Source: a virus. From it: a DNA stretch of 41,714 nt. Location: the IMG/VR virus record IMGVR_UViG_3300001349_000030, positions 22-41,735 of that record; one strand, 5' to 3'. The notes beneath the pieces were generated by a model. It had not been told where the DNA came from, made no database searches, and saw only the letters and a program-made list of their open reading frames with translations. How positions within the stretch are numbered: the first letter of the stretch is position 1; each line of letters begins with the position of its first letter. The translations under genes were made by a program, and so were the position numbers. Of this stretch, positions 19,557 to 39,400 are shown in pieces.

Positions 19557-21416
19557 ATGGCATACAAATTAAGAGACGATCCTGGAATTTTAACTCCTTA
19601 TGAAGACGACAGTTCAAACAATAGAAGAGTCGTATCAAGAGTAACTGAAACAAAAACTGGAGAACCATCTAGCACAATAGAGACGCAAACTATTGAAATT
19701 ACTGCTAAAAATTATGGAATCCCTACAACTACCTTCAACACATCAGAAATAACTTCTGCTCTTGTTCGTTTCCCTAATACACAAAGAATTAGAAAGCAAG
19801 ATGAGCCTTACGAGCTAACTGAAGAATTCTCAAAATCAGGACGTCGATACACAAAGATTGCATCAAGAAATCTAAAAGTATACACACGTTCAAGCACATC
19901 CGTTATAAGTGACACATTAAACGTAGTAAGTGCAAAAGATCAAGCAGGTGCTACAGTTTTTACTGCAAATTCAAATATTCCGTTTTTGGCAGCACCTGGT
20001 AAAAAGATGAATAAAACTGTTGCCTCTGTAGATCTAACATCTCCTGATGCATCATTATATCAATACATCGAAATAGTAAACCCTTCAGTAACAATAGGGT
20101 CAACAACAGATAAACAATTCTCAATTTCAATGTGGTTTTATTTAAACAGCAATAAAGAGACAATATTACTAACCAAAGGTGCTTCTGCAACTCAAGAATA
20201 CGAGTTGAAAATAAACTCTGATATGAAAATAGAGTTTAAGACAGTTGACGCATCTGCTAACACTTACGTAATTACATCTTCAATTACCGTTGAATCAAAT
20301 AAGTGGCAACACATAGTAATATCCTCTGCAGGTAACAACTGGTCTTCTTCAGGAGCACTCACTAATAAATTTTATAGACTTTACTTAAATAAAACTATTG
20401 ATAAAAATTATTCTATTGTTTGTTCTTCATATGGAACAGCTGGGACTAGAATTACAACAGAAAATGTCTTCGTAGGTACAAATAAATCAGGTTCAAACAA
20501 CAACATAGACGGCTTAGTAGCTGAAGTAGCTATGTGGCAAGACTACTATCTTAAGAAGAAAGAAGTTGTAGCTATTTACGACTCTGCTACAAAAAATCTA
20601 TCAAAAACAGACACATCAGCAACTGATGCATTTAGACAAGGTGTTAGCGTAACAACAAACAAATACAAGCACGAGTCTTTATTGTTTAAGTTATCATCAA
20701 ACAATCAGAGAAACATAAATCGCCCAGATCATTATATTGAACAAAGAGAGTTCGGGCAGCCAAGTAACTATGAAGGAAACATACCTTTCAGCGATATTGA
20801 AGGAAGATTTAAACCATACGATCTTACTACTCATACTATACTAAGCACAGAAACAGTTCAATATCCTGTAGTTTACGACAATAATATTCTTGAATCAGAC
20901 AGAAATAATGGTGTTCTCGAACCGTTATCAATAAGAGAGGCAATACTCAACAACTCAATTGATTCGCCTTGGCAAGCACACAGAGTTTCTGGTGAAATAT
21001 CTGGAGGAAATTCAAACCCAGAATTTGGATCTATCTTAGTATCGAACGATATAAAAAGAACAGAAGATCAACAAAAAATAGAAAATGTAATGATTAATGA
21101 CGACAGTTATTTTGATGCAAGCGAACAGGCATTTGATCCTGTATTTGATTCTGCGACTTCTACTACAATAACATTCAATGTTCCTGGGTACTCATCTGAC
21201 GTACCACAGACAGAAGTACTGTTTAACGATACAGCAGTTTTAGAAATAAGCACACTAATTTCAGAAGCCGAGGCATTGATTAATATAGCATCTGCTCTAC
21301 CAGATAGCTCTAGATCAAACTATTTAATAAAGTCAGCAACCTCTGGGTTTGTATACGACAGTGTTTCAATTACAGGCACAGACTCTTTAGCGTTCGGTGG
21401 GTTACTTAGAAAATAA
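19557..21416 (+). CDS. LamG-domain virion protein
   Basis: The protein has 619 residues. A Thr/Ser-rich N-terminus with many polar strands precedes a LamG/ConA-like domain at about 150-347 (FSISMWFYLNSNKE, KWQHIVISSA, NIDGLVAEVAMWQDYYL). The C-terminal 270 residues are polar, with a REFGQPSNYEGNIPFSDIEG segment and an ending shaped for assembly. AGGA lies before the ATG. It shares the LamG architecture with the preceding and following genes but differs elsewhere, so these look like modules added to distinct scaffolds. A baseplate or fibre-network role is inferred from location. Confidence 0.75.
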   Translation: MAYKLRDDPGILTPYEDDSSNNRRVVSRVTETKTGEPSSTIETQTIEITAKNYGIPTTTFNTSEITSALVRFPNTQRIRKQDEPYELTEEFSKSGRRYTKIASRNLKVYTRSSTSVISDTLNVVSAKDQAGATVFTANSNIPFLAAPGKKMNKTVASVDLTSPDASLYQYIEIVNPSVTIGSTTDKQFSISMWFYLNSNKETILLTKGASATQEYELKINSDMKIEFKTVDASANTYVITSSITVESNKWQHIVISSAGNNWSSSGALTNKFYRLYLNKTIDKNYSIVCSSYGTAGTRITTENVFVGTNKSGSNNNIDGLVAEVAMWQDYYLKKKEVVAIYDSATKNLSKTDTSATDAFRQGVSVTTNKYKHESLLFKLSSNNQRNINRPDHYIEQREFGQPSNYEGNIPFSDIEGRFKPYDLTTHTILSTETVQYPVVYDNNILESDRNNGVLEPLSIREAILNNSIDSPWQAHRVSGEISGGNSNPEFGSILVSNDIKRTEDQQKIENVMINDDSYFDASEQAFDPVFDSATSTTITFNVPGYSSDVPQTEVLFNDTAVLEISTLISEAEALINIASALPDSSRSNYLIKSATSGFVYDSVSITGTDSLAFGGLLRK

Positions 21417-21464: not shown

Positions 21465-24400
21465 ATGAGCGAAAAAGTTAAAAGTATATTTCTTGATAAT
21501 ACTACGGTCTTAAGCGATCAAATAGTGGATCATAACTTGACTGTGTCTTGGAAGACTATCTTTGGCGATGACAACCCAAACGCAGGCAATAGTAGCCTTA
21601 TCGCTTATTGGAGACTAAACGATATAACAGGTGCTGACAGTTCAGGAAACGGACACAATATAACATGGTTGTCTGGCACGCCTTTTATGACCCAATCAAC
21701 ACCATTTAAAAATAAAAATAATACTGTATTGTTCGATGGAACAGCAAATCACGGAAGTGTTGTTGACCATGACAATTTGTCATTTGGTAATGGCGCATTC
21801 GACCAACCTTTCAGTATAAGTTGTTGGATAAACCCAGAAGCTTTGACTTTGGGTTCTTCTTCTGGAATAGTGTCAAAAGCTGACGAGTATAATCTCTATA
21901 TAGAAAATAAATCTGGTGGTGATAAAACAAATGAATACTCAGTAGTATTACAGCTTGTTGATGCCTCTACTAACATGTTTCAATATGTTTTTGATGAACA
22001 TTCAATAAGTAAAGATTCATGGTTTAACATAGTAGTTACTTATAATGGTCAGAGCTCTGGACCCTCTACAGATATAAACTTTTATATTAATGGAGTACGT
22101 AAAATATCAAACGAAATATCAAATGGAACAACAGGCACTTACGTAGCAATGTCTAATACTGCAAGTGATATGATAATAGGTAGATACGATGCATTACCAG
22201 GCACATATATAAACGGAGCACTTTCAGAGCTAGCAATTTGGAACCGCGAACTAACAGCATTTGAAGCTAAAGCACTTCATGATGTTAAATATGGAGTAGT
22301 AACTTCATTGGGAACTTACACATCTTATTCACCACGAATCATGTTACGTGACAAAGATAACCAACGTGGACAATATTCAACAGCCAGAAGAACAGGTGAT
22401 AAAGATAGAACAGGAACATTTAATATACAGTTCAACGATGAAAACACAGTTGAATTCAAAAAAATTCCAACCGTATACCCAGGCGAAAAAGATAAATCAT
22501 TCTCGATAACAGACAGTGGTTCTAAATACACATACAGTTCACAGGCTAATCTTGTTGCTCACTGGAGACCACAAGATGTAGTGATCCCAACGACTACTGT
22601 ATCTGCTACTCCGCTAACTACTCCAAGTGGGGTAAAACTATTTGTTGGTGGAACAGTTCCAGTAAGTGATACAGCATACATAGAAAATAAAGTAGCCGGC
22701 GGACAAATAGCAAATATTAAAAACTTTGCAACAATACTATCAACAGATGATCCAAGATACAACAGCTACACAGAAAGAGACGGAAAATTATACGATTCAA
22801 TAGGATCAAGAAATTCATACAAATATCTTAGCAATGGAAATAACGTAAATGATGGATTAAACATTGGGACTGCTTCAATTTGGGATGCTATAATTGGATC
22901 AAACACTGCAGGGGGCTCAACTAAGAAAATGACGTTCTCAATGTGGGCAAAAAGAAACGTAGATACCGGAACGGCAAGGTTATTAGATTTTGGCAACACA
23001 GACATCTCTCTATACGTAGATTCAGCTGAGAGAATATGGTTTAAGGCTACTTGGGACAGCCCAGCAGACCCCGTGTGGTGGAACTCAGCCTCTTCAGTGT
23101 TGACTTCTAATTGGCAGAATATTGTAATAACTTATGATGCAACAGTTACAACAAACGATCCAGTCTTATACGTTGATTCTGTTTCGATACCACTTACAGA
23201 GACTAGTGGTCCACCAACAGGTGTCTTAAGCGTAATAAGCACAGATGATTGCTACATTGGAAACGATGCGGGGCTTACAAACGTTTTTAATGGTTATATA
23301 GCTGACGTCGCAATCTGGAACAGCACATTAACATCAGCAGAAGTCAAAGCCATTTACTTGAACGACACACGTTGGAATCCAGACATATCTTCCACTCAGG
23401 AGGTCCAGTATCCCATGGGACTTCTTAAAGGAGACTCACGCCTCCCTGGCTTGGTCACAGACATAACAACGAAAGGATTAATAACCCGCTCACACTCAGG
23501 AGAAAGTTTCAATATTATCACTGATGGTGAGGACATCTCTGCATACAATGATGAACTTGTTAAGACTCAAGACACTGACTTCTACAACACAGGAACAGAC
23601 AGAGAAGTATACCCGGGGTTCTCATCTCCACTAAGAAGCAAGACATCGTTTACTTTCGACATAACGGCAATACAAGATCAATATGTGTTTAGACAGAACT
23701 ATGATACAGTTTCTGCCGGAGAGTTTCACCCTACGACAAGTGATTTTACTGGTTTTTGTTATTATTCGTTTACTGAAAACAAATGGGTTCAAAAAGGAGA
23801 GACTAATTTTAGATATGGGTTTGATCCTAACAATCCAGGTACTACTGGTCCTGTATCATTCCCTTCACAGTTTGCTGGACCTTCAAACTTTCTAACACGA
23901 TTAAACGAAGATACACAAGACTCAACTGTTACAAAAGAAGTTTTAGGTTACGATAAAATCGGCATGCCTACTATTACAAACTTAGCTCCTTGGGCCACTA
24001 AGTATCATGCTCTTGATGCAGAGATTCTTGATACAGACTTTATTAAGTCACCTTTTTTATTAGAAAAAATATCTATTAATTTACCAATCTACGCTAAGCA
24101 TATATTAGACAACAATATTTTAAATGATAGACAGAAAGAAATGTCTAACTATATGGTCTTTCTTTATTTACAAAAAAGAGTTTCAACTGTACAAGACTCA
24201 CAAGATGACATAGATACATCTGAGAGAATTTTGATAGCATCAAGTTCTATTTGTTTCTATAACAAAAACGTTCTATATGACGTAGTTATGGGTGGGCCTG
24301 CTCGCTTAGTAAAAGACTTTTATCCTATTCATGATACTGGGTTTTCACATGGATTTGACTTTACAAATGACGGAACATCTGGAGCTGAAATAAAAGAATT

Positions 24401-26558
24401 TAATGACAATATAACTCTAGAGTTCTTGCCCTCTATATTCGGACAAAATTACACAGTATCAAAAATTCCAACATACGTTCCAAGTGTCTACAGCATCTCC
24501 ACAAACAACTATTGTCATTTTTGGCCTGGTGGCAACTCAATAACCCCTTTCAAGATTGACAACGTAGAGGTTGGCGGAAAATCTTTAACAAATTCACTTT
24601 CTCTAACAAAGGGAACGGACTCAAATTACACACCTTTTGAAGAATATACAAATCTTAAGTCTGTAAGCGAAAAATACAGCAAGATAGGAGTAGATAAAAA
24701 TATACAGAGACATCAAAAGAACATAGGTATAGAACTAAAAGAAACACAAATAACATCTTCAGTAGCTTTAATAAATCAGTCATCTCAACCAACGTCAATT
24801 GAATCTTATTCTACGTCTTCTCCTTTTTTATTATTGCCAGGTGATAGCATCGTCTTAGGAATAGAAAAATGTGCAGGTGACTATATTACAGCCGCGGGTG
24901 AAGAAGAATCACTTTCAGGCTCATACATAAAAATAAAAGCCGAACCGGCGTCAATGACATTATACGGTTCTCTAATAAAAGAGAATAAAGAGTTTCACAA
25001 TACACTAAATCAAGATCTAACATCAAATTCAGTTCACGAAGCTTACTATGGAGAGCCAGTTCTAGATCAGTTCGAAATAGAGCCGATATCAATGTATGCT
25101 AGAACAACAAGAGATGAATACGTTACTGGTGATATGAGTACACTTGACGGTGATAGCATTCCTATTGGGACAAGAGGAGTTACAAAAAGAGTAACAGATG
25201 GAGACGTTGCAGACAGTTGGTCTCTAACGCGATTTAATACTTTTGCTGATGAAAATGAAAGATATTACGATACTTTGTTACCAGACGTAGGACAAATATT
25301 AAACAACATTGGTCTTATAAACTTAAGTGACGCTGCAATAGATTGGACGAGTGGAACATTCATTGATCCTGACGATCCTACAGGTGTGGCAACATTAGCA
25401 TACTCAGATCTTTCAACTAATCTCATAGGAATAAGAACAGGTTCTTTACATATTGAACTTAAGGATCTAGGAGATGGTTCACACCCTCCCCCTTACACAG
25501 GATTTCTAGACACAGTAGACGATACTGTTGCTGGCGTACATGACGCTATTATAGATAAAACAAACTTGTTTGTAGACGGACGCTTGGCAAACCCTCCAAG
25601 CCTCGTACACGTATATCATTCAGAAGACCCAGATTATTCACTGACTTTACCTTCTCTTGATGTTACAAGAGGTATGAAAGCTAAATATCAATATGCTATT
25701 GACTTCTTTCCTGGGCACACTATTCCACATTTTCCGTTTAGTGTTAATGTAAGAAGAACAGACAATACAGAGTTTTCAATATTGACTAGATACGCTACTG
25801 AATATGGTCTATATCAAGAATCAGATTGGTGGAGAAAAGCTAATGGAGACCCGTACCCTTCTCCACCTAATATTATGGATGCTCAAGAAAGTTTCTATCA
25901 TACAGGATCAATTGCAGTCTTAGGCGCTGTTATTGGGTTTGGTCCCCATTATGAAATAATGACAAACACACAAATAAAAAATTTAATATTTAGAAACTCA
26001 ATAGACTCATTGACAACCGAAGATACTGTACAAACACGTCTAGTGTTAGGAACGCCTACTGCTTTCAAATACGAATACGGATTTAATTCAACAATATCAT
26101 CTTCAGGAGAGCTGTCGTCTTACGCCTATGGGGTAAGAGACATAGAATCAGTAACTTCAACTGCTGTATTTAGAAGCAATAGCTACGGACAATTCAGAGA
26201 CATGCTTGAACAACGTCACTATGGAAGATTCTATAAACAGCGTGAATTTACACCACGATTTGCATCATCTCCAGGGTTTCAAGGAAGAAACATGATTGAG
26301 ACTAACGATTTTAAACAATCAAAATTTGTCACAAAAGGTCCCATTGAGATTAAATTTGTAGAAGAAAATTCTTCTACTCAGGTTGCTGACCCACAATTTA
26401 CAAATTCTTCTAATCTTAGCCCATATGCAACTTCATCGCTTCCATTTTTTGATGATCTAACTACATATCCTTCTGGAAGTAATAGAACATACACGTCAGA
26501 CACATTGAATTCAGCTGTATTGTCAACACAATTAACTTTTGATATAAGTGGTGCATAG
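21465..26558 (+). CDS. Giant virion protein with two LamG/ConA-like domains
   Basis: At 1697 residues this is the largest gene in the window. LamG domain 1 (about 43-277) has SLIAYWRLND, DSSGNGHN, FSISCWINPEAL, WFNIVVTYNG and GALSELAIWNREL. LamG domain 2 (about 362-632) has NLVAHWRPQD, MTFSMWAKRN, NWQNIVITYD and GYIADVAIWNSTL. The remaining 1050 residues are a long Tyr/Asn/Ser-rich structural region with a MYARTTRDEY and GRFYKQREFTPRF segment near the C-terminus, and no recognisable enzyme motif. The stop overlaps the next GTG start by one base (TAGTG). It probably forms a long peripheral baseplate arm; the function is inferred from neighbours. Confidence 0.75.
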   Translation: MSEKVKSIFLDNTTVLSDQIVDHNLTVSWKTIFGDDNPNAGNSSLIAYWRLNDITGADSSGNGHNITWLSGTPFMTQSTPFKNKNNTVLFDGTANHGSVVDHDNLSFGNGAFDQPFSISCWINPEALTLGSSSGIVSKADEYNLYIENKSGGDKTNEYSVVLQLVDASTNMFQYVFDEHSISKDSWFNIVVTYNGQSSGPSTDINFYINGVRKISNEISNGTTGTYVAMSNTASDMIIGRYDALPGTYINGALSELAIWNRELTAFEAKALHDVKYGVVTSLGTYTSYSPRIMLRDKDNQRGQYSTARRTGDKDRTGTFNIQFNDENTVEFKKIPTVYPGEKDKSFSITDSGSKYTYSSQANLVAHWRPQDVVIPTTTVSATPLTTPSGVKLFVGGTVPVSDTAYIENKVAGGQIANIKNFATILSTDDPRYNSYTERDGKLYDSIGSRNSYKYLSNGNNVNDGLNIGTASIWDAIIGSNTAGGSTKKMTFSMWAKRNVDTGTARLLDFGNTDISLYVDSAERIWFKATWDSPADPVWWNSASSVLTSNWQNIVITYDATVTTNDPVLYVDSVSIPLTETSGPPTGVLSVISTDDCYIGNDAGLTNVFNGYIADVAIWNSTLTSAEVKAIYLNDTRWNPDISSTQEVQYPMGLLKGDSRLPGLVTDITTKGLITRSHSGESFNIITDGEDISAYNDELVKTQDTDFYNTGTDREVYPGFSSPLRSKTSFTFDITAIQDQYVFRQNYDTVSAGEFHPTTSDFTGFCYYSFTENKWVQKGETNFRYGFDPNNPGTTGPVSFPSQFAGPSNFLTRLNEDTQDSTVTKEVLGYDKIGMPTITNLAPWATKYHALDAEILDTDFIKSPFLLEKISINLPIYAKHILDNNILNDRQKEMSNYMVFLYLQKRVSTVQDSQDDIDTSERILIASSSICFYNKNVLYDVVMGGPARLVKDFYPIHDTGFSHGFDFTNDGTSGAEIKEFNDNITLEFLPSIFGQNYTVSKIPTYVPSVYSISTNNYCHFWPGGNSITPFKIDNVEVGGKSLTNSLSLTKGTDSNYTPFEEYTNLKSVSEKYSKIGVDKNIQRHQKNIGIELKETQITSSVALINQSSQPTSIESYSTSSPFLLLPGDSIVLGIEKCAGDYITAAGEEESLSGSYIKIKAEPASMTLYGSLIKENKEFHNTLNQDLTSNSVHEAYYGEPVLDQFEIEPISMYARTTRDEYVTGDMSTLDGDSIPIGTRGVTKRVTDGDVADSWSLTRFNTFADENERYYDTLLPDVGQILNNIGLINLSDAAIDWTSGTFIDPDDPTGVATLAYSDLSTNLIGIRTGSLHIELKDLGDGSHPPPYTGFLDTVDDTVAGVHDAIIDKTNLFVDGRLANPPSLVHVYHSEDPDYSLTLPSLDVTRGMKAKYQYAIDFFPGHTIPHFPFSVNVRRTDNTEFSILTRYATEYGLYQESDWWRKANGDPYPSPPNIMDAQESFYHTGSIAVLGAVIGFGPHYEIMTNTQIKNLIFRNSIDSLTTEDTVQTRLVLGTPTAFKYEYGFNSTISSSGELSSYAYGVRDIESVTSTAVFRSNSYGQFRDMLEQRHYGRFYKQREFTPRFASSPGFQGRNMIETNDFKQSKFVTKGPIEIKFVEENSSTQVADPQFTNSSNLSPYATSSLPFFDDLTTYPSGSNRTYTSDTLNSAVLSTQLTFDISGA

Positions 26559-27484: not shown

Positions 27485-28708
27485 ATGGCCGGAATATTAG
27501 ACAACAAAAAAAGAATAATGGATACAATCGTTACTCAAGAAGGAAGAAGACAGCTCTCTTCAGGTAAATTTACGATAAAGTATGCATCGTTCACAGATGG
27601 TAATGTATTCTATGAGGCAGACTTGTCAGCTGGAACCTCGGATGCTACTATTAGAGTACCATTTGAAGCAGTCAATAAATTCCAAGATAATATCGTATTT
27701 GAAACAGATGATAGTGGTAATTTGTTAAGTTATCAAGGAGACGGCGTAGAATTGAATGCAGATGGTTCTATTGTTTCTTTAACATCTACATACCCAAACG
27801 ACACTAGAATATACAATGGAAAAATAGTAATAGAAGTAAAAGGAACCACATCTCCAGCTGGACTAGATTATTTTAATTACTACGATGAGACCACTAAATC
27901 AATAGTTTATTGGGTCTATGGGTATGCCAACGATGCAACGTCTTCAAACGGTGCAGGCTCATTGACACCTGGATCAACAGCAGACATAGATGGGTATGGC
28001 TGGTTACTAACTGATAGTACTTATGTCTGGCCAACACTGGCACTAAAATCACACTTTCAGTCAACTGATAACTTTATAACAAACACAATATCTTCAAGGA
28101 ACACGATCTCAGATAGTGCAGGGTTTTCTTCTACTGTAGACAGTATAACTACGGCATCTTTTGATAGTTTCAAACAGCAGAACTTTATAACAACAAAGTC
28201 TAGTAGGAACAATCAGGCATTTAGCGTTACACAGTCCAATGATACTTTTACGTATACTGTTGAGTCTGGGTTCGATAATGAAATTACAGTATCAAAGGAA
28301 TTAAATTCTTTACCTGCTTTGATTAATGATATTAAATTTTCAAATGTTTTGAATTTTAAGTTTTTACCACCCATAAATAAAAATGATAATTCACCTAATG
28401 GTTTATATGCTGATCTAAATGCAAGCAATAAACTAGAATCAATTGACATAAAAAAAATGATTGATAAAAAACAATCTATATCATGCGTTTTAAATAGTGG
28501 TGAAAATGTCAACAAGGTTATATTTCAAATGTTTGAAGAAAACAACGTCGACTTAAAGATAAAAAAGCTAGACATGTTAGACGCAGGCGAATTTAATATA
28601 GATGGATCAGTGAAGAGAGTAATATTTATAGGAAAAGTCTTAATAGACACATTTAATCAGCCGACTTTTATAAACATGTTCACAGTGGAGGTTTCAGATG
28701 ATGTTTAA
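27485..28708 (+). CDS. Virion structural protein with T-x-x-GR N-terminal module and YAND module
   Basis: The protein has 407 residues. Residues 1-47 (GILDNKKRIMDTIVTQEGRR followed by QLSSGKFTIKYASFTDG) share D-x-x-(V/L)-T-x-x-GR-x-x-L and a following F-x-I strand with the start of the protein at 35881. Residues 142-187 (YWVYGYAND ... GYGWLLTDSTYVWP) form a module found again in the protein at 36617. The C-terminal half is polar and beta-rich, with ISCVLNSGENVNKVIF. No enzymatic motif is present. The stop overlaps the next start by eleven bases. It is probably a tail or neck structural protein. Confidence 0.65.
   Translation: MAGILDNKKRIMDTIVTQEGRRQLSSGKFTIKYASFTDGNVFYEADLSAGTSDATIRVPFEAVNKFQDNIVFETDDSGNLLSYQGDGVELNADGSIVSLTSTYPNDTRIYNGKIVIEVKGTTSPAGLDYFNYYDETTKSIVYWVYGYANDATSSNGAGSLTPGSTADIDGYGWLLTDSTYVWPTLALKSHFQSTDNFITNTISSRNTISDSAGFSSTVDSITTASFDSFKQQNFITTKSSRNNQAFSVTQSNDTFTYTVESGFDNEITVSKELNSLPALINDIKFSNVLNFKFLPPINKNDNSPNGLYADLNASNKLESIDIKKMIDKKQSISCVLNSGENVNKVIFQMFEENNVDLKIKKLDMLDAGEFNIDGSVKRVIFIGKVLIDTFNQPTFINMFTVEVSDDV
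27908..28045 (+). repeat. YAND module, copy A (46 residues)
   Basis: This encodes YW-(V/I)-(Y/F)-GYAND followed by an acidic/glycine loop and GYGWLLTDSTYVWP. It aligns by eye with 37274-37429 in a different protein. The nucleotide sequences are much less alike than the proteins, so divergence is not recent. Confidence 0.6.
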
Positions 28709-30941
28709 TATCGACACAATGACAACAAAAAATACAGAAGAAAATTTAGAAAATAAAACTAAATCAACAAGAAGTCGCAAGTCAGTTAAGGGGACAAACA
28801 ATAAAGCTAACTACGATTTTGATCTTGAAAACGACTTACAACTTGAAAGAAAAGCTGAAAATATAGTTCTTAGATTCTCTATGAATGCTAACATACCTCT
28901 AATGCTTAAAAATAAAATTAGAACAATTAGGGTAATTTTATCAAAAGCTAGATTAAGTGAAATTAGAAGAAGTTACGGCAAACAAGACGGGATCATTGAA
29001 GACTTCTACATTAACGTATCTGACTACTTTGACGTAAGAAAAAAAGAAGAAATATTAAAAAACAAAAGCTTAAAGACAATTGATCTAGCTAATTTTAGTA
29101 ATTCGTCTATTAGCTATAAAAATCAGTCACTGCTCGGACTAGCGATAGAAAAAAAGTTACCACTCGGTGAGATATTTAACAAAAACAACAATGAGATAAA
29201 CAAACATTTCAGTTTTTCAAGAGATACAACTAACAATAATGTATTGCAGGCGTCTAAAGAAACTGTCTTAATGACCCATTACATAACAAAGAAGCTAAAT
29301 AAAAAAAATGCCCTTTTTGTAAAAATAATAGAACTGTCAAGCAACAAAGAAGACAATATCGCATCTGTATTTGATGACACTTTAAAATATTACTCTATAA
29401 ACAACTTCAAATTAAAAAATTTCAATAGAATAGAGACAAAGTTTCTTAACATAGAGAGTGAAAAAAACAACAAACTGTTCGCGGCAGGTAGAGAAAATAA
29501 AAACAGAGCTCTTCATGAAATAGAAGTACTCAATGAAGAGTCTGATACGCTTACTATTTTAAAAAAATCAAATCTAAAAGATCGGTTTTCTAAATTAAAA
29601 ATATCTGAAATAAAAAACAGCATAGGACAAAACTACAATATAAGAAATTCAGCACCTTCAATTTATAGAATATTGGACGGAAAAAATAAACTTTACGATG
29701 TTTTTGTCGGCGATGTAAACAAACAACTATTTGAAACTAACCCAAGTGTTCATTCATTTTATCTTGACAACGCTATAATGTTGATGATAAACAACGTTCC
29801 AAGTGACTTTACACATTACACAGTCTACAGATACGAAGAATCAAACAAAAAAAATAAAACTGAAATAGAGACAAATTCTTCGGATTTTAATTTTTTTTAC
29901 GATAACATGCTTATATTAAGAGACGAAAACGTTAATGACAATAAAATGTATGGGTATCAAGTAAAGTTCAACACAAAAAACAATACAGATATACTAACTA
30001 ACGTATCTAACAGATCGACATTTATAGAAACAACAGGATCATATACGCTTAGCAGTGAGATTGTTTCAAAAGATGGTGAAAATTCAATAGTGTTTACGAC
30101 CACAGTCCCAACAACAGATTCAGAATACATATATGATAGTATTAAGAGCAATTATCCAGACATCAGCGACGATTATAAAAACAATCTTGTAGAAAACTAC
30201 TCGTATTTATCGTTTGTTAAGCTAATGGCACTAGATCTAAAAACAGGAAATATAACTGTAATCGGTATAAAATCTGCAGAATCAAATAAAATAGAGTTTC
30301 CAATGTCTAATATAAACTTGGATGAATCTAATCATATATTTTTTGGAGAAATGTTCTCAAACTCAATAATCTCTATGATTGAAAATATGAATTCTTCTTC
30401 AAGATACCAAGATGGAAAAAACGACTATATTCCACAAGTATCATACGATTTAAGTAGCTTAAATCTAGATGTTGATAATTTTGTCTCTAAATTTACAAGC
30501 TACTCGTCTATGAACACTGGAACTCTAACTTATTCCAGGGCACTTTCTGATGAACCGGGCAATCTAATAGAGACATATAAAACTGGTGTAACTACAATAG
30601 TAAACAAACCGCAGTTTATTAAAAACGATAATACATTAAATATTGATAAAAAAATAGAAATAAATAACAGAAACGTTCCTACAATAACAATAAACTTTAA
30701 AAGCAATGCACCTGACTCTGTTCTAGTTGTAACGTCTTCCGAAAAAGGAATAAATTTTAGGACTGAGAAGGGAATAACAGAAAATGGAACTGTAGTGTTT
30801 TACGATCACTTAGCAAAGTTTGAATTTTTAAATGAAATAATAGATTACTTTATAATTCCAGTGTATAATAATTATAACATAAACAATGTTGTAAAATTAG
30901 GAACAGTAATATGCTCCAAAGACAATTTCAGGAGCATATAG
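28698..30941 (+). CDS. Large virion protein with FN3-like domain
   Basis: The protein has 747 residues. A Lys/Asn-rich, apparently disordered N-terminus (1-45) leads into an alpha/beta region of unknown type. A fibronectin-III-like segment lies at about 355-440 (DFTHYTVYRYEESNKKN and a following MYGYQVKF strand). The rest is beta-rich with many Asn/Ser. GGAGG at 28687-28691 precedes the ATG at 28698 (a second ATG follows at 28701). No catalytic motif or signal peptide was seen. It forms an operon with the next three genes, which are likewise unassigned. A tail-associated role is inferred from location. Confidence 0.6.
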   Translation: MMFNIDTMTTKNTEENLENKTKSTRSRKSVKGTNNKANYDFDLENDLQLERKAENIVLRFSMNANIPLMLKNKIRTIRVILSKARLSEIRRSYGKQDGIIEDFYINVSDYFDVRKKEEILKNKSLKTIDLANFSNSSISYKNQSLLGLAIEKKLPLGEIFNKNNNEINKHFSFSRDTTNNNVLQASKETVLMTHYITKKLNKKNALFVKIIELSSNKEDNIASVFDDTLKYYSINNFKLKNFNRIETKFLNIESEKNNKLFAAGRENKNRALHEIEVLNEESDTLTILKKSNLKDRFSKLKISEIKNSIGQNYNIRNSAPSIYRILDGKNKLYDVFVGDVNKQLFETNPSVHSFYLDNAIMLMINNVPSDFTHYTVYRYEESNKKNKTEIETNSSDFNFFYDNMLILRDENVNDNKMYGYQVKFNTKNNTDILTNVSNRSTFIETTGSYTLSSEIVSKDGENSIVFTTTVPTTDSEYIYDSIKSNYPDISDDYKNNLVENYSYLSFVKLMALDLKTGNITVIGIKSAESNKIEFPMSNINLDESNHIFFGEMFSNSIISMIENMNSSSRYQDGKNDYIPQVSYDLSSLNLDVDNFVSKFTSYSSMNTGTLTYSRALSDEPGNLIETYKTGVTTIVNKPQFIKNDNTLNIDKKIEINNRNVPTITINFKSNAPDSVLVVTSSEKGINFRTEKGITENGTVVFYDHLAKFEFLNEIIDYFIIPVYNNYNINNVVKLGTVICSKDNFRSI

Positions 30942-30942
30942 A

Positions 30943-31209
30943 ATGGCAGATGCAAGAATCAGTGGAAATGTAAAAAAACTTTCAATGAGCAGAGTTTCAG
31001 CTGAACGTTCATTTCAAGAACCACCATACACAATAAATCTTGGTGTTGAACTCATTGCAATTACAGATGTCTATCCACTAAAAACAGGAAATGCTTCAGG
31101 AGAAATAGATACTGAGTATTTAGAGATAATATTGCTTAAAAAGAATTTTTTTGACAAAGTAACTGAGTATGGCGATAGTCTTTTAATAGAATCTCCGGTG
31201 AGTAGTTAA
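30943..31209 (+). CDS. Small conserved-looking protein between large virion genes
   Basis: The protein has 88 residues. The start follows the upstream stop by one base, with AGGAG upstream; the next gene begins one base after its own stop. The sequence has a basic N-terminus (ISGNVKKLSMSRVSAERS) and a short beta/alpha core (NLGVELIAITDVYPL, LEIILLKKNFF). It has no cysteine, transmembrane helix or recognised motif. Its tight coupling with two much larger structural genes suggests a joint assembly partner or chaperone; this is inference only. Confidence 0.6.
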   Translation: MADARISGNVKKLSMSRVSAERSFQEPPYTINLGVELIAITDVYPLKTGNASGEIDTEYLEIILLKKNFFDKVTEYGDSLLIESPVSS

Positions 31210-31210
31210 T

Positions 31211-33946
31211 ATGCCTGTATCCACCATATTGGACTCATTCTCAGCTGTAACACCTCCAACATCAGCTGAAATAAAACAACTAATTTCTTCTAGTAGTACA
31301 AATAGTCGTAGAGAGTATGTCGAAGTAAACAACTATGATGATCTTTTAGAAAACTACAGTATAACAACAGAAAATATAAAAATTGCTCTTGATAACGTAA
31401 AGTCACTACGAGAGTCAATAGACAGCTATTCAAATGAAGAAATTTTAAAAACAGAAGAGTTCGTAATAACTGAAATAAACTGGTCAGGCGACGCTACTGG
31501 AAAAACAAACGCAATAGAGCCAATAATCAAGATAGATTCATCCGAAGATACTCTAAACAAAGGTTTTAAAACTACACTTTTTGAAGATGGTATGGGCTTA
31601 AGATCACAATTGTCTGAAATAGTTGAAAGATATTATAACACAGATTCTGCACCAAATAACATAAATGAAATAGTCACAGAATACGAAAATGATTTTACAG
31701 GACTTCAGTCTGTTACTGACATTTTTACATTGTTAACATATCATAACGAAAATATAAATGACACTTTAAACAATGTAACAGACGCAATAAATGTTATTGA
31801 TGGGTTAAATATGGAATTAATTCCTGAAAGTATCACTGATTTTTATCTCGATACAATTGTTGAAAAAGTCAGTGGGACAAACACAGGAAAGGTCTCAAGC
31901 ACAATATCTGAACTAGACAAAATTCTAACTGCAATTGATAATATAAACAAGAAAAATGCAGGAACGACTTTCTTGTTTAGAGTCACAAGCAGACTACACA
32001 ATGTATTGTTGGCTGCATCAAATATATTAAGCAGCAATGAAAATCTATTGTATGGTTTTCTTCTTGAAGAATTTAGCGACGACAAAGATATGTTTGAAAA
32101 ACTATTTACAGAAGATGAAGCTATTTCATCAAGTGTGCAAAAAGACATAACTAAAAAATTAACATCTAAATGGGAAGATAAATTTAGAGAATACAGCAAG
32201 TTTGACAAAGATCGCACTGATGATGAAAAGTACGCAGATCTGAGAATAAAAAGCAGCAATCAGAATACAATTGTCTTAGACAGAGGGGCTTCTTATACTA
32301 AAAAAGATACAACATATTATTTAGATACAGACAGTGCTGACGAAAAACAGTACAAAGATACATTGTCTTCAATTGGAGAACTCTTTGATAGCTTTAGAAC
32401 GACAGAAGAAAGACAGATAGTTGCTGTAATGATGAGAATAATGCTTTCAAGCTCAAATAGAAAAACGCTCGTAGTTTCAAATTCAGGCTACGCTTATACG
32501 GAGCCTGCAAAAAACAGTATATACAAAGCTGACATATACGTTAGGGAAGCGGATGAAGGAGTAGGCAAGGAAGCAACTTCTGTAATTGAAATTGAACTGT
32601 CACCAATAAGTGAATTAGTTGATAATTTTGATACAGTTTTTCTTGATGGAAAAAATATACAAGAAACCTTCATAGACGGGCCTGTCTCAAGGATCGAAGG
32701 ATTAAAAGACGAACAAATCAGAAGCATTCAAGAAGATTTCTTTGGCGGAGAAAATGCACTTGACTTTTTTGCAAATGACTGTGTAAAACACTTTATTCCC
32801 ATTCAACTTCATATAAAAGAACTAAATTCTATAGCCACAAGAATAGAAAAGCTAAAAGAGCTACTTCAGACAGTAGACGAAATAGACGCAGAGAGTCTTA
32901 GTATCACATTTGACAAAGACTTTAGTGGGTTATTAAGAAATGGTGATATAAACTTAGCACTTGCTGTAAAAGAATATTATGACATTTTACAAGAAAGTAA
33001 CAATCCTTTGATTCAAAATAGATTTTCGCCTATTAATGATCAAGAAAAAACAGCATTAGAGTCACTATTCAGCGAGCAAAACTTAATTCAAGGCAACATA
33101 GACGAACAAATAAAAATATTTTCTTTAGGGCTCACTAGGGAATCAATCGGTGAAATATACGCACCCAAGAAAATATCAGTAGTCATAACAAAAATAGACA
33201 CACTCTATCCAGAAATAGTCTTTGAACCCCATAAATTAGATATCGATATTTTAAACTTCCCTGTTCTAAACAACTATAACTTTAACACTACTCAAACAAG
33301 TTCAGAAACTACGCTTAACGAAATAGGAACAGCAATATCTTCTGCTTCAACTAAATACACATCATTTAAAGACTTTGTTCAAGATGGTATGCATTTTTTA
33401 AACTTAGACGAAATAACAGCAGGTTCAGCAATAAACTCTATAGAACCAAAAACTTTTGATGAAATAATAGCATCAGACGATGACGCCACAGCAACTGAGA
33501 TTAAATTATTAAATGCTGCAAAAAGCTATGTATTGGGAATATACATTAGATCACTTATCGGGACTGAATTTAAAGGAAGTGACTTAGACGAGAGGTATGA
33601 TGATGTGTGGTACGACGAAAATGCAGTAGAAAACTTTGAAAAAATATACGACTTACCTGATCCTGAGACAGAGCTATCTAAAAGATTCAAAAACATAATG
33701 TTATATAATTCTACAATTCTAAACAATCAAAAAATAATAGACGATGTATTAAGTCTTCACGACATTATGTATACTTACCATGCCATGCTAAACATAACTA
33801 CTGACTTCGCCTACAACGAAGAAGACTACCCAGATTATGATCCAACAAAAACACTTCAGAATCTTGAGTTCGAAGTTTCTTCATCATTTGAATCTGACAT
33901 ACAACTGACAGTAGAACAAGTAATAAAAGGTGAGGAGATAGAATAA
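31211..33946 (+). CDS. Large acidic helical virion protein (unassigned)
   Basis: The protein has 911 residues, is dominated by Asp/Glu/Lys/Ser/Asn and is predicted largely helical, with many coiled-coil-like stretches (ENIKIALDNVKSLRESIDSY, IATRIEKLKELLQTVDEID). No enzymatic or fold motif was recognised. A central charged loop (VYVREADEGVGKEATSVI-like) separates two helical halves. The start lies one base after the preceding stop; its own stop overlaps the next ATG by one base (TAATG). An extended scaffold, long-tail-fibre-connector or tape-measure-like role can be imagined, but it lacks the hydrophobic segments typical of tape-measure proteins. Confidence 0.6.
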   Translation: MPVSTILDSFSAVTPPTSAEIKQLISSSSTNSRREYVEVNNYDDLLENYSITTENIKIALDNVKSLRESIDSYSNEEILKTEEFVITEINWSGDATGKTNAIEPIIKIDSSEDTLNKGFKTTLFEDGMGLRSQLSEIVERYYNTDSAPNNINEIVTEYENDFTGLQSVTDIFTLLTYHNENINDTLNNVTDAINVIDGLNMELIPESITDFYLDTIVEKVSGTNTGKVSSTISELDKILTAIDNINKKNAGTTFLFRVTSRLHNVLLAASNILSSNENLLYGFLLEEFSDDKDMFEKLFTEDEAISSSVQKDITKKLTSKWEDKFREYSKFDKDRTDDEKYADLRIKSSNQNTIVLDRGASYTKKDTTYYLDTDSADEKQYKDTLSSIGELFDSFRTTEERQIVAVMMRIMLSSSNRKTLVVSNSGYAYTEPAKNSIYKADIYVREADEGVGKEATSVIEIELSPISELVDNFDTVFLDGKNIQETFIDGPVSRIEGLKDEQIRSIQEDFFGGENALDFFANDCVKHFIPIQLHIKELNSIATRIEKLKELLQTVDEIDAESLSITFDKDFSGLLRNGDINLALAVKEYYDILQESNNPLIQNRFSPINDQEKTALESLFSEQNLIQGNIDEQIKIFSLGLTRESIGEIYAPKKISVVITKIDTLYPEIVFEPHKLDIDILNFPVLNNYNFNTTQTSSETTLNEIGTAISSASTKYTSFKDFVQDGMHFLNLDEITAGSAINSIEPKTFDEIIASDDDATATEIKLLNAAKSYVLGIYIRSLIGTEFKGSDLDERYDDVWYDENAVENFEKIYDLPDPETELSKRFKNIMLYNSTILNNQKIIDDVLSLHDIMYTYHAMLNITTDFAYNEEDYPDYDPTKTLQNLEFEVSSSFESDIQLTVEQVIKGEEIE

Positions 33947-35796
33947 TGAGCATAAATATTGCAAAACTTCTTATTATAGATGAAGCTGACAGTGGTTCTA
34001 AATCTGAAAACTTTAAGCTAGATTTTGTATACAATTATTTTGAAAAAAGTGAAAGAGAGTTTATTAATTCAAATAAAAAACTAAAGAGTCTCAACGGAAA
34101 CTCACTCTCAGTAGTCCCACGATACATAAAAATTAGCTTTGACAGACACTCTAAAGAAGACTATGATGTTCTTCCTGACGGTCCTTTGAAAAACTTTATA
34201 GATAGTGAACCCTCACTTGAAACAATTTTATCAAAAAATACAAATGCTATCAAGTATGAAGAGAAAATATCAGCTGACAGCTATTTTAATTTAATGTTCC
34301 AGGACAAAAAAACAAGCGATGGATTCTATAAATCTTTAAACGACGAAGTTCTATCTACATCAAGCAATATAGCACAAACAGGGCTACTAATACAAGAAAC
34401 TCCTTCAGTCACATTTGAATCTTTAGTTAGCAATCAAGACGGTTTAACTACTTCATTTATTCAAGATACAGATTTTTATCAACCTTGGGATTTTTCAATC
34501 TATTATGCTGCGGCATCAAAATTTCACTCTGGAACTTTTAACAAGCTAGACAACGTGCGCATTAATACACGCGTTAGCACAAAGTATGTAAAAAAAATAA
34601 TAAACAACGTAGTTGCCGATGGAGCCTCACCTTTTTCTGATGAAATGAAAATACTTCAAGATGGTTGGGGATACATCAAAGATCTACCGATTAGAGACTC
34701 AACAGAAGACTATCATGACTTTGACCCAGAAGGAACATCTACACAGACTAAGACAAGCGTAATTGGGTATATTATAGAAAAATATGAAAACAAAATGACG
34801 GGTAACGTAACTAAAAACAAAAATGAGTTAATAAAGCACCCATCAATTTACATAAAAGGAACTGAAAATATTGATATAATAGACAGACACGTTAGATACG
34901 GTGGGTCTTATGAATATAACATAAGAACAGTTGTCGCAGTAATAACAAACGACACTATAACGCAAGGCGACGACAAGTTCAATGCCGATCTTTTAAAAAT
35001 ATTAGTATCTGCTGGAACATCAAAGCGATCTATTTATTGTAGTGAAAGAATATCTCCGCTACCACCAACAAGTTTGTTTTTCCAGTATAATTTCAAAAAA
35101 GACGCACTTCTTGTTAACTGGGAATTTCCTTTCAACAAACAACAAGACATAAAGCGTTTTCAAATATACAGAAGAGATTCTTTAACTTCACCTTTTTCAC
35201 TTTTGCGTGAGTATAACTTTGATGATTCAACAGAAACAGACGGTTTTTCGCCAGCATCTGGGAACCCAAACAACATAAGAAAGAAATCATCACCAGTATG
35301 TTTTTTCTATGATGGCGACTTCAACGAAGAATCTAAATACATTTACGCAGTTGCTTCAATAGACGCAAGAGGTTTGACATCAGGATATTCAGATCAGTTT
35401 CTTGTCAGTTATGATCGCTTTATAAACAAAACACAAGCTAAGTTTATCTCTAGATCAGGAGCACCAAAGCCATACCCAAATATCTTTTTAGAGCAAGATA
35501 CACTTTCAGATGTAATAAAAGAAGACAAGGCAAAAAAAATAAATATATATTTTAATCCTGAGTGCATGGAAGTAACAAAGTCACAACTATCAGAAGATGG
35601 CTCTGTTACTTCACTCCCGTCTGAGTCTATAGTAAAAGACGGCACATACGCTAGCTCAGGAAGTTATACTTTTCAAATAATAAACATTGAAACTCAAGAG
35701 CAGAGCTCTGTTAAGTTTAGTATAACGAAAGAAGATTTTTTGACAGCTGAAGAACAATTAATACTAGAAAACACGTCATACACATCAGGAATTTGA
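33946..35796 (+). CDS. Virion protein with FN3-like domain near C-terminus
   Basis: The protein has 616 residues. The N-terminal half is polar and alpha/beta. An FN3-like domain spans about 370-492: PLPPTSLFFQYNFKKDALLV followed by NWEFP, FQIYRRDSL, YIYAVASIDARGLTSGYSD. The last residue block YIYAVASIDARGLTSGYS is the common F/G-strand pattern of FN3. A C-terminal beta segment follows (GSYTFQIINIETQ). Such domains decorate phage tails and may bind weakly to cell surfaces. It overlaps the upstream gene by one base and is followed by an 84-bp gap. Confidence 0.65.
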   Translation: MSINIAKLLIIDEADSGSKSENFKLDFVYNYFEKSEREFINSNKKLKSLNGNSLSVVPRYIKISFDRHSKEDYDVLPDGPLKNFIDSEPSLETILSKNTNAIKYEEKISADSYFNLMFQDKKTSDGFYKSLNDEVLSTSSNIAQTGLLIQETPSVTFESLVSNQDGLTTSFIQDTDFYQPWDFSIYYAAASKFHSGTFNKLDNVRINTRVSTKYVKKIINNVVADGASPFSDEMKILQDGWGYIKDLPIRDSTEDYHDFDPEGTSTQTKTSVIGYIIEKYENKMTGNVTKNKNELIKHPSIYIKGTENIDIIDRHVRYGGSYEYNIRTVVAVITNDTITQGDDKFNADLLKILVSAGTSKRSIYCSERISPLPPTSLFFQYNFKKDALLVNWEFPFNKQQDIKRFQIYRRDSLTSPFSLLREYNFDDSTETDGFSPASGNPNNIRKKSSPVCFFYDGDFNEESKYIYAVASIDARGLTSGYSDQFLVSYDRFINKTQAKFISRSGAPKPYPNIFLEQDTLSDVIKEDKAKKINIYFNPECMEVTKSQLSEDGSVTSLPSESIVKDGTYASSGSYTFQIINIETQEQSSVKFSITKEDFLTAEEQLILENTSYTSGI

Positions 35797-35880
35797 TGTA
35801 ATAAGATACTGTATAATTTAGTTTTTACTAAAAATCTAGTTTGTATATAATTATTAATAATATTTTAGAGGAATAATAAT
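35797..35880 (+). promoter_or_regulatory. AT-rich gap with -10-like boxes and small hairpin
   Basis: TATAAT occurs at 35812-35817 and at 35846-35851. Neither has a well-spaced -35. A short TTTAGT/ACTAAA hairpin (35817-35832) sits between them without a following T-tract. AGAGG serves the next ATG. A promoter for the gene at 35881 is plausible. Confidence 0.4.
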
Positions 35881-36591
35881 ATGGGATGGTTAAGACACGA
35901 TACAAACGATATCTTCATTGATGCTGTTTTAACGGACAAAGGAAGAGAGCTACTAGCCGCTCAGGATGGTTCTTTTCAAATATCAAAGTTTGCCCTATCT
36001 GACGAAGACTGTGACTACAACGTAATTCAAGAATTTGGACGCGTTGTAGGAAAGGAAAAAATAGAAAAAAACACCCCGGTGTTAGAAGCATTGACTAATA
36101 CTTCGCTTTCACAGAAAAGCTCTCTAATAAGTATCTCTGCAAACAACCCTACAATGAGTCATCTTCCTTTCACTGAACTTGGTAGTACTGTTGTGAATGG
36201 TGTCATGAGCTTAAGTCTAACAGCAATACCGAGCTCTGATGTAACTGTTACTCAAAAAATAGATGTTTCAATAAGCCCAGTTCCTCAAGATGTAGTTAAC
36301 CATAGCTATACAGTTGAAGTTAACAACTTGTTTTTAGAGATTGATGGTCAGAACTATAGCAACATAACTACAGATAATGTAGCAACATACATTCTATCAG
36401 CAACCTCTACAAGCGTCTCAGACGTAAATAAATTATCAACTCTTGTTCTAAATTTGGTTCGTAAGAATATAAATACGACATCATACAGCATGTACATAAA
36501 AAACAATTTAATAAGAACTTATGTTACAATTATGGGAAATCAAGACGGTTCAGAGACGACTTTTGAAGTTCAGATATCAACAATAACATAA
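35881..36591 (+). CDS. Virion structural protein with T-x-x-GR N-terminal module
   Basis: The protein has 236 residues. Its N-terminus (DIFIDAVLTDKGRELLAAQD then SFQISKFALSDEDCDYN) belongs to a type common in tail structural genes of large phages. It shares the D-x-(V/L)-T-x-x-GR-x-x-L core with the protein at 27485. The rest is beta-rich (SVTQKIDVSISPVP, NNLFLEIDGQNY, RTYVTIMGNQDG) without enzymatic motifs. I do not know its exact position in the virion. A late-type box (CATAAATA) overlaps its stop. Confidence 0.65.
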   Translation: MGWLRHDTNDIFIDAVLTDKGRELLAAQDGSFQISKFALSDEDCDYNVIQEFGRVVGKEKIEKNTPVLEALTNTSLSQKSSLISISANNPTMSHLPFTELGSTVVNGVMSLSLTAIPSSDVTVTQKIDVSISPVPQDVVNHSYTVEVNNLFLEIDGQNYSNITTDNVATYILSATSTSVSDVNKLSTLVLNLVRKNINTTSYSMYIKNNLIRTYVTIMGNQDGSETTFEVQISTIT

Positions 36592-36594
36592 ATA
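36587..36594 (+). promoter_or_regulatory. T4-late-like box CATAAATA
   Basis: CATAAATA matches the NATAAATA core of T4-type late promoters in seven of eight positions and lies 22 nt before the ATG at 36617, overlapping the previous stop. The presence of a gp55-like gene makes it plausible. One site alone in AT-rich DNA is weak proof. Confidence 0.4.
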
Positions 36595-36616
36595 GAATAT
36601 AACAGGTTAAAGCAAA

Positions 36617-38269
36617 ATGGCAAAGTTTAAGACAATAACGTCATCAGATATTACAACAAGTAAATCTTTTCTAAATCAATTAGTAGACGTAATACAGGAA
36701 GACATATCTGGATCAACAACAAGACAGAAATATCAAGTATTTGTTACTGGTGGGGTAGGACCTGGTGTGACATCTTCACTATTTCATACAGTTCACGATC
36801 AAGACTTTACTCTACAGACTGCTAACCCAGTTTTTGACGTCACTGTTGGCATGTTTAGAGATTATGTTAGTGCAGGAATGATCCCAAAAGGTAGCTCAAC
36901 CCCTACAATGGGCTCATTACCTACGATAGATGGCACAACAGGAAAACTAACTTTCGAACAAAACTCGCTAATGATGAGAGAGAAAGTCAACCTCTATAGG
37001 CAGTTTTCTCAACTTCTTCTTAACGATGCCGGTGCACAGTTCACAGCTCCTTTCACTGATCCAGCATCAGATGGAACAGACGTCATCAACAACGCAATGT
37101 TCGTCTGCATGAAACGTCTTTTTGCTCGTGACAGTATCAAACGCGAGACATTCGCAATGAAGTTCTACCACTCAGCATCTTATGTGCCTACTGATGGTGT
37201 ATATACAACAGTAGCTGATGGTTCTTGGGACGTATCTCCTACTGGGCTATATACATACACAGACGGGACTAATTATTGGATATTCGGATACGCAAATGAT
37301 GGAGTGGACGCTACAAGTGGACCATATGATGGAACTTGGGACACAGTCACTCCAGCAAACGAAGAAGCTGCTGCTTATGGTTGGTTTGTAACAAACGCTG
37401 CATATGACTGGCCAGATACAGCAGCATCACTTCCTGGAGATGCAGATAAAGTTGACATCGTTAGCGATCTGACATTAGATATAACAAACCTTAATACAAC
37501 CTCTCCAAATGATGTCAAAATCTACACAGACGTCGGTTCATCTACTTCAAAGATGTCTTCATATGCAGGAGCAGTAGGTGATATTGTAGACGCCTCTGAC
37601 ACTAATAAAACAGTTGGACTGATGTTCTATGATCACGGAATAGCTGTATACGACATGGAAAAAATAATGGACTGTACTCAGAAGGTATCTGGTACAATAA
37701 GCTCCGTGTCAGATGAGCTTGCAAATACAGCCAATTGGTTTACTGTGACGCCTACTACTACAGGGCTTGCAGATGGATTTACCTTTATTGGTGCAGAGAA
37801 AACAACCGGAGTTGGAGCCGGACAAGGTTCAGATCTCACAAACCCACACGCAACTTTCGTACCTGACCTAATGTATTCGGGTTCAATTGATAATATCTTG
37901 GATCACATATCAGCTTGTCGTTTTGGAAGTGGAACATTCTCAGCAATGACATTTCAGAATGTAACTAATATCAACTCATCACTTATTTTTTGTCGCGCAA
38001 CTGCAGATGAATTCAACTTCTCTTCTAATTCATCATACACTGATACAGCTGGAAGAATTGTAGTCATAGATGAGTCTGAGATTGGACAACAATCTTCATT
38101 CACATTTGTGACATCTGTTGGTCTGTATGATTCAAGCAACCAGCTCTTAGCTGTTGCCAAGCTATCACGCCCAGTAGAGAAGAACAACGAAAAAGACATG
38201 ACATTCAGAATCAGACTTGACTTCGCCAAACGACAGACAAACATTCGACTCAATCACAGACGAAACTAA
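36617..38269 (+). CDS. Virion structural protein with YAND module
   Basis: The protein has 550 residues. The N-terminus (FKTITSSDITTSKSFLNQLV, IQEDISGSTTRQKYQVFVTG) and the C-terminus (FVTSVGLYDSSNQLLAVAKL, then SRPVEKNNEKDMTFRIRLDF) are of types that recur in tail/neck structural proteins of large marine-type phages. The GLYD-x-x-x-x-LLAVAKLSRPV segment is especially distinctive. Residues 220-271 carry the YAND module also found at 27908. The intervening regions are Thr/Ser/Gly-rich. Codon choice looks somewhat richer in C-ending codons than the neighbours, as often seen in abundantly made virion proteins. No sheath motif is evident, so the exact role is open. Confidence 0.7.
   Translation: MAKFKTITSSDITTSKSFLNQLVDVIQEDISGSTTRQKYQVFVTGGVGPGVTSSLFHTVHDQDFTLQTANPVFDVTVGMFRDYVSAGMIPKGSSTPTMGSLPTIDGTTGKLTFEQNSLMMREKVNLYRQFSQLLLNDAGAQFTAPFTDPASDGTDVINNAMFVCMKRLFARDSIKRETFAMKFYHSASYVPTDGVYTTVADGSWDVSPTGLYTYTDGTNYWIFGYANDGVDATSGPYDGTWDTVTPANEEAAAYGWFVTNAAYDWPDTAASLPGDADKVDIVSDLTLDITNLNTTSPNDVKIYTDVGSSTSKMSSYAGAVGDIVDASDTNKTVGLMFYDHGIAVYDMEKIMDCTQKVSGTISSVSDELANTANWFTVTPTTTGLADGFTFIGAEKTTGVGAGQGSDLTNPHATFVPDLMYSGSIDNILDHISACRFGSGTFSAMTFQNVTNINSSLIFCRATADEFNFSSNSSYTDTAGRIVVIDESEIGQQSSFTFVTSVGLYDSSNQLLAVAKLSRPVEKNNEKDMTFRIRLDFAKRQTNIRLNHRRN
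37274..37429 (+). repeat. YAND module, copy B (about 52 residues)
   Basis: This encodes YWIFGYANDGVDATSGPYDG, then a Thr/Glu loop and AYGWFVTNAAYDWPD. It is the counterpart of 27908-28045, with about six extra residues in the loop. The surrounding host sequence differs between the two proteins. Confidence 0.6.
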
Positions 38270-38311: not shown

Positions 38312-39400
38312 ATGCCATTACGCGACTATACCTGTAAACAATGTGACAAACAGTTTCAAAACAGAAAAAAAGATAAGAAATTCTGTTCTATGAACTGTTA
38401 CAAACTGTCAAAAAAGAATCCAGAACAAATAATATCATGTCTAAGTTGCGATAAAGAATTTACAGTTCAATATCGTCACAGAAGAAGGAAGTATTGTTCG
38501 CGGTCATGTGCAATGTCACATACTAAGACAAAACTTCGCCATAAACTTACATGTGAAAATTGTAACAAAAAATACGAAGTAATAGAGTGTAGATCAGACA
38601 AGTCAAAGTTCTGCTCGTATGATTGTTTTTTAGATAACAAGCGAGGCGGATTGGCAGCAACAATTGTAAAAACGTGTGAACACTGCGAAAAAGAATTCAC
38701 AGTTCAGTTCTCTAAAAGAAAGAAAAGATTTTGTTCAAAATCATGTTCTAATACAGGTGAAAACAATGGAATGTATGGAAGAGCAGACCTAAGTGTGTGG
38801 ACTGGGAAACCTGCCTGGAATACAGGACTTACTGCCAAGTCAGACGAAAGGCTTGCAGCTCTAGGACAAAAAATATCAAAACAAATGAAAGAAAAGTTTA
38901 AGTCAGGAGATTTAACAAACGAGGGAAAAAATAATCCAAACTTTGGAAGAACACGAGACACAAGAACAAAAGAACAGCTCGACAATTATTCTAGAGCAGC
39001 GATAAAAAGAATAAAGTCATCAAATTCTGGATTTATCACAGGTTACTACGTAAGTAAAAAAACAAATATACGGATGAAACACAGATCGTCTTATGAAAGA
39101 AGAATGATGGTTTGTCTTGATATAGATCCGTATGTAAAATCATATGATTATGAATCTATAACGATAACGTACGGAGACGATTTGAATAAGAGATATATTG
39201 TTGATTTCGATGTTGAGTTTCTTGACAATAGAAAGCTAATAGAGGTGAAGGCAAAAGTTTTTCTAAAAGACCCAGTAGTTATTGCTAAAGAAAAAGCTGC
39301 AATCAATTATTGTTCAAATAAAGGCATCACATACTCTATTTACACACTTAAAGAAATCGAAGAATATGAAAAGAAATTAGGAGTCAAAAATGAAAACTAA
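38312..39400 (+). CDS. Probable homing endonuclease: four zinc fingers, NUMOD3-like repeats, TnsA/Vsr-like PD-(D/E)XK nuclease
   Basis: The protein has 362 residues. Four C-x2-C ... C-x3-C zinc fingers have cysteines at 8/11/25/29, 43/46/62/66, 81/84/101/105 and 122/125/141/145. Residues about 150-225 contain NUMOD3-like segments (NNGMYGR, then NNPNFGR) that bind DNA in homing endonucleases. The C-terminal 110 residues hold a Vsr/TnsA-type nuclease core: SYERRMM (E262), YIVDFDVEF (D298) and IEVKAK (E311, K313). Free-standing nucleases of this type spread their own gene by cutting uninterrupted phage relatives. The gene separates structural genes, has its own promoter, and overlaps the following gene by eleven bases. 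Confidence 0.85.
   Translation: MPLRDYTCKQCDKQFQNRKKDKKFCSMNCYKLSKKNPEQIISCLSCDKEFTVQYRHRRRKYCSRSCAMSHTKTKLRHKLTCENCNKKYEVIECRSDKSKFCSYDCFLDNKRGGLAATIVKTCEHCEKEFTVQFSKRKKRFCSKSCSNTGENNGMYGRADLSVWTGKPAWNTGLTAKSDERLAALGQKISKQMKEKFKSGDLTNEGKNNPNFGRTRDTRTKEQLDNYSRAAIKRIKSSNSGFITGYYVSKKTNIRMKHRSSYERRMMVCLDIDPYVKSYDYESITITYGDDLNKRYIVDFDVEFLDNRKLIEVKAKVFLKDPVVIAKEKAAINYCSNKGITYSIYTLKEIEEYEKKLGVKNEN

Follow-up and report, generated by a model that had tools for sequence, protein, structure and literature searches.

A protein module of approximately 64 residues has been inserted in frame twice in the genome of an uncultured tailed phage, in two otherwise unrelated proteins (A and B) whose relatives lack it. 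We suggest that it may act as an accessory host-surface-binding domain that one lineage has added to unrelated baseplate or tail proteins, a reading to which we assign a probability of roughly 0.5. The DNA analyzed (the window, 41,714 nucleotides) is part of one IMG/VR virus record of 42,466 bases, and it contains the following features.

27485 to 28708, plus strand: protein A, 407 aa, carries copy 1; no Pfam or PHROG assignment
27776 to 28105, plus strand: extra stretch of A (approximately residues 98-207), missing in relatives, contains copy 1
27851 to 28042, plus strand: YAND module copy 1, A residues 123-186; BLASTP E 1e-8 with copy 2
36617 to 38269, plus strand: protein B, 550 aa, carries copy 2; member of a conserved family
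37181 to 37516, plus strand: long loop of B (residues 189-300, 112 aa), contains copy 2
37235 to 37423, plus strand: YAND module copy 2, B residues 207-269; BLASTP E 1e-8 with copy 1
27908 to 27933 (copy 1) and 37274 to 37299 (copy 2): encode the YWxxGYAND motif
27995 to 28032 (copy 1) and 37376 to 37413 (copy 2): encode the YGWxxTxxxYxWP motif

Two proteins share one module

The module match between A and B comprises 70 alignment columns, of which 28 (40%) are identical (E 1e-8 as a single BLASTP comparison), and it is the only match between A and B in an all-against-all BLASTP of the 29 window proteins (E 5e-6). None of 2000 full shuffles reached the module score of 109, the best of them scoring 67. 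The significance of the similarity relies on this full shuffle and not on a block shuffle of A against B, where one shuffle scored 109 against an observed 110; the block shuffle is a weak test because the blocks retain local composition. At DNA level, the degenerate pattern for each motif occurs exactly twice in the window, while 100 shuffles give an expectation of zero. This agrees with the original prediction that the proteins at 27485 and 36617 have the motif pair in common within a module of about 50 residues. The motif core is of that length, and the full similarity spans from SPxGL to WPxxA, i.e., about 64 residues, possibly extending somewhat further. Residues kept in both copies are SPxGL, Y-D-T, YWxxGYAND, YGWxxT and YxWP. 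The module core is rich in Tyr and Trp, with 12-13 aromatics per 63-64 residues (19-21%) compared to 10% across the window proteins, and it has no Cys and only 0-1 Lys/Arg.

Full-length paralogy of A and B had been set beforehand as the result that would overturn the prediction. When the modules are masked, the A-B score is 37, which is below the shuffle mean of 40, so A and B are not end-to-end paralogs. The conserved cores of the two families also differ, the sequence around the module has no match between A and B, and the similarity is confined to the module, as had been predicted.

Relatives of protein A

Relatives of A were found at 80 viral-contig loci, of which 71 are full-length. The family is conserved in its N-terminal region (MAGILDNKxRIMDxIxTxEGRxQ) and C-terminal region (FVGKxxxDxxxxPTFxNxFT), and the module is present in none of the 71 full-length members. 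The segment that holds the module in A is 197 aa long in the window, 82-124 aa in 63 of the 71 relatives and 241-281 aa in the other 8. These eight long relatives have a different, unrelated extra stretch of approximately 130-150 aa at the place of the module. They are L047, L050, L077, L079, L094, L097, L106 and L109, and most of them contain a sequence resembling YVGTKGGMGPxxFxxAIxxAI...GGPNV in this stretch, for which no significant Pfam match was found in the four members scanned (L050, L079, L097 and L109). By eye, the N-terminus of the protein encoded at 35881-36591 (DAVLTDKGRELLAAQDGSFQISKFALSDEDCDY) resembles that of A at 27485-27620 (DTIVTQEGRRQLSSGKFTIKYASFTDGNVFYEAD), and its BLASTP score against A is not significant.

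Relatives of protein B

The B family is characterized by the conserved AMTFQNVTNINS and a C-terminal LLAVAKLSRPxEKNxxKDxTxRxRLDF. Relatives were found in 28 viral contigs, 26 of which cover the region in question, and their conserved parts align end to end. None of the 27 relatives with the loop covered (the 26 viral contigs and a contig of a Halobacteriovorax MAG) contains the module. The loop lies between predicted strands at 180-184 and 300-306, and its 112 aa in the window compare to 13-71 aa (median 30) in 22 aligned relatives. The longest loop among the relatives, 71 aa, is found in L003 (L003 10001-11539) and includes an acidic run, DTTDGDGDGVYDA.

In relatives, a large protein close by shares the C-terminal domain of B, which is also found in the Rhodothermus phage RM378, the Flavobacterium phage immuto and the Microcystis phage Mel-JY01. 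In such relatives as L003, L017 and L018, the gene that follows the B relative encodes a large protein whose C-terminus resembles that of B. Distant phage homologs of B are mostly annotated as hypothetical; in immuto, the adjoining genes are named tail fibre and tail spike. The AlphaFold2 model of B, built from an alignment without copy 1, has a pLDDT of 50 with the module segment (188-289) below 50, and a Foldseek search with this low-confidence model gave no match in the PDB. Against BFVD, Foldseek returned three significant matches, two labelled as uncharacterised phage proteins and one nameless.

Directly after B, at 38312-39400, lies a gene resembling zinc-finger/HNH homing endonucleases. 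The 109-kb contig of the Halobacteriovorax MAG (L123, PBIO01000013.1) has relatives of A (end only), of the genes at 33946 and 35881, and of B, arranged as a collinear block; the contig is possibly a hint of the host or a misbinned phage contig.

Insertion and age of the module

In either family, L003 stands closest to the window; the two are collinear throughout the block, and neither L003 gene contains the module. The L003 relative of A aligns only to residues 1-97 and 208-401 of A (phmmer). Since all covered relatives are free of the module, the nearest one included, and since both sites vary in length, the module is a lineage-specific in-frame insertion that occurs twice in one genome. In the B tree, the window protein pairs with L003 (support 100/98) among module-free relatives, and gain on the window's own branch is therefore the simplest reading. 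The eight A relatives with a different insert and the range of B loop lengths further show that both sites tolerate inserts. The original prediction of a mobile module in two otherwise unrelated proteins is thereby strengthened, and as no copy was found outside the window's genome, the word "mobile" refers to two instances within that genome.

Identity to L003 is 47% for A and 61% for B, i.e., higher than the 40% between the two module copies, so the copies may have diverged before they entered the genes. Either an ancient duplication or two related donors would explain the pair. Among the 57 aligned residues, 28 are identical, and 12 of these 28 use identical codons compared to 13.2 expected if codons were randomised. 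That the silent sites are saturated while the core is retained argues that the relationship is old and that selection on the aromatic/Gly/Asp core has kept both copies. A recent foreign origin was considered and finds no support in the composition: the module has a higher raw GC, whereas its GC3 is ordinary for the genome. No direct repeats were found bracketing either insert.

Searches for further copies

Searches for a third copy were performed by tblastn in 50,697 phage and 72,556 plasmid records, which gave no meaningful E-values. In 2.9 million viral contigs, queries with either copy, with an alignment of both and with two DNA patterns gave nothing that exceeded chance. The same outcome was obtained with a two-copy HMM over 17,816 ORFs (122 fetched loci and the window), in the whole records of the relatives, in a collection of bacterial genomes, and in 129 genomes from the order of the Halobacteriovorax MAG. 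As a positive control, a search of the module's own record recovered both copies. Most of these searches were seeded by exact short stretches or a two-row profile and would thus miss distant members. Matches to the YWxxGYAND pattern in L031-L037 lie in short or unrelated frames where the rest of the module is missing, and they look like chance.

The expectation that an HMM built from both copies would reveal further members was accordingly not borne out, as far as the searches reach. The absence of other copies had also been named in advance as grounds for rejection; the finding stands nonetheless, since two insertions are already evident from the relatives without the module. The module sequence is new in that it is seen nowhere else in the collections searched, and the earlier view that it belongs to no named family holds in Pfam, PHROGs and PDB sequence searches: there is no Pfam match, and the best E in the PDB sequence search is 1.3.

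Genomic setting

The genes at 12574 and 13046, upstream of A, match baseplate wedge subunits, and with T4-like wedge genes the phage seems to have a contractile tail. Three large neighbouring proteins (16098-19547, 19557-21416 and 21465-26558) give four matches to Laminin_G_3 (ConA-like lectin), two of them in the same protein, and the baseplate/tail region of this phage is rich in lectin-like domains. The protein ending at 26558, just upstream of A, has an S74 chaperone domain at its end, a domain typical of tail fibres. Judging from their neighbours, A and B are likely to be located in the baseplate or tail fibres. The original prediction referred to A and B as virion proteins; the gene context supports this well, and it is from this context that we infer the presence of A and B themselves in the virion. 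Elsewhere in the window, two adjacent glycosyltransferase-like genes (6881-8122 and 8101-9294) are both assigned to PHROG 2170, and a third glycosyltransferase-like gene at 4068 lies near this pair.

Possible function of the module

The aromatic-rich core and the insertion of the module at variable places in two proteins that probably belong to the tail together fit an accessory binding domain. The lineage would have gained the module, approximately 64-75 residues, in frame in variable stretches of two structural proteins. On the virion surface, its conserved tyrosines and tryptophans might then bind weakly and repeatedly to a ligand of the host surface (most likely a polysaccharide) and thereby raise the avidity of adsorption. 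The module would not be the primary receptor-binding protein but would only add binding, and selection would retain the aromatic/Gly/Asp core of both copies. The idea that it is a small exposed decoration domain is conjectural, with independent folding and surface exposure being presumed; AlphaFold2 yielded no usable structure of the module, either within B or for the module pair on its own (pLDDT 41). A further and doubtful extension is that the module represents a new small domain family, with most members unsampled, which serves environmental contractile-tailed phages as an exchangeable patch for host binding and moves from one unrelated virion protein to another.

The main rival to host binding is shared docking, in which the module is a structural adaptor that joins A and B, or both to a third partner (e.g., a decoration protein), during baseplate assembly. 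Such a role would suit two copies found only in the same genome, less than 10 kb apart and in proteins that probably adjoin each other in the same assembly, and both copies are retained despite saturated synonymous change. However, all examined relatives of A and B manage without the module, and the conserved aromatics and scarce positive charge would suit ligand binding at least equally, so we regard docking as unlikely.

Length variation at both sites across the families, and the other inserts held by several relatives, would be expected if the module were a neutral surface spacer without binding function that is merely tolerated. A free spacer would not be expected to keep its core while the synonymous sites are randomised, as seen here (28 of 57 residues identical, 12 identical codons), which makes this explanation quite improbable. 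Nor do we favour an ancestral module, shared with L003 or present deeper and lost elsewhere, which we rate as highly unlikely. The L003 loop is the longest among the relatives, and the copies are more diverged from each other than A and B are from L003, so their split need not postdate the split from L003. Nevertheless, 556 of 2000 shuffles reach the score of the L003 loop against the module, i.e., the loop is at shuffle level and was rejected as a decayed module, and deeper presence would require many losses in each of two families.

The first half of the module, SPTGLYxxxDGxxYWxxGxxND, could also be read as a degenerate beta-propeller blade, i.e., as a fragment of a propeller-like repeat such as Synechococcus phage S-SKS1 contains. 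Copy 2 and one repeat of this phage align with a score of 78, which none of 1000 shuffles reached (hhalign probability 73% over 39 columns), and the E of 4.4e-5 within that genome belongs to the same repeat, for which the search of the full phage collection gave an E no better than 2. As the match is the best of a 2.3-Gb search, its pairwise statistics are inflated by selection. The blade is accordingly a very remote explanation: copy 1 scores weakly (reached by 14 of 1000 shuffles), the YGWxxT...WP half has no counterpart, no significant propeller match by both copies over the whole module was obtained, and the S-SKS1 repeat is a local look-alike of the first 40 module residues for which database E 2 does not support homology.

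Comparison with known systems

An accessory binding domain of the kind we propose would work in a similar way to the inserts of lactococcal phages. In the 936 phages, CBM decorations are inserted in Dit, MTP and neck proteins, i.e., in several unrelated virion proteins (PMC6669499), and inserted carbohydrate-binding modules aid adsorption in lactococcal phages (PMC10688798). The likeness to evolved Dit and the 936 CBMs is that of an in-frame domain within a conserved structural tail protein (PMC6669499; PMC10688798), with relatives that lack the insert, binding modules on several unrelated virion proteins, and inserts that vary among relatives. In A and B, the extra segment is likewise internal, and what lies N- and C-terminal of it aligns to relatives without the module. 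The known inserts differ in that they can be recognised as carbohydrate-binding domains, and host binding has been measured for some of them, while the YAND module is known here from its sequence. A and B also give no significant Pfam or PHROG match (nor any PHROG match for the aligned members scanned), and thus match no Dit, MTP or NPS family; they are therefore described as working like an evolved Dit rather than being one. The window phage differs further in its contractile-tailed appearance with T4-like wedge genes.

A fragment common to otherwise unrelated proteins is also what defines domain mosaicism in phages, for which receptor-binding and baseplate proteins are named hot spots and contemporary cases have at least 50% identity (PMC10684548). 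A and B conform to this pattern, with similarity limited to one fragment and none elsewhere. At 40% identity the pair falls below the contemporary cut-off and is thus older, and both of its copies are in one genome. The Laminin_G_3 domains (PF13385) at 16098, 19557 and 21465 are a second repeated domain type, on three neighbouring proteins. They belong to a recognised family of approximately 150 aa without sequence relation to the YAND module, and neither A nor B matches PF13385 at E up to 1.

Significance

The class of mechanism, inserted binding modules and domain mosaicism, is known already; the module sequence is new, and its function is one that we infer. One module inserted twice, each time in a protein with module-free relatives, points to positions at which these phage proteins tolerate additional domains. 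Should the module bind the host surface, a group of apparently contractile-tailed phages with unannotated attachment proteins would have a new small adhesion domain, and differences in adsorption could naturally be sought in the two variable stretches.
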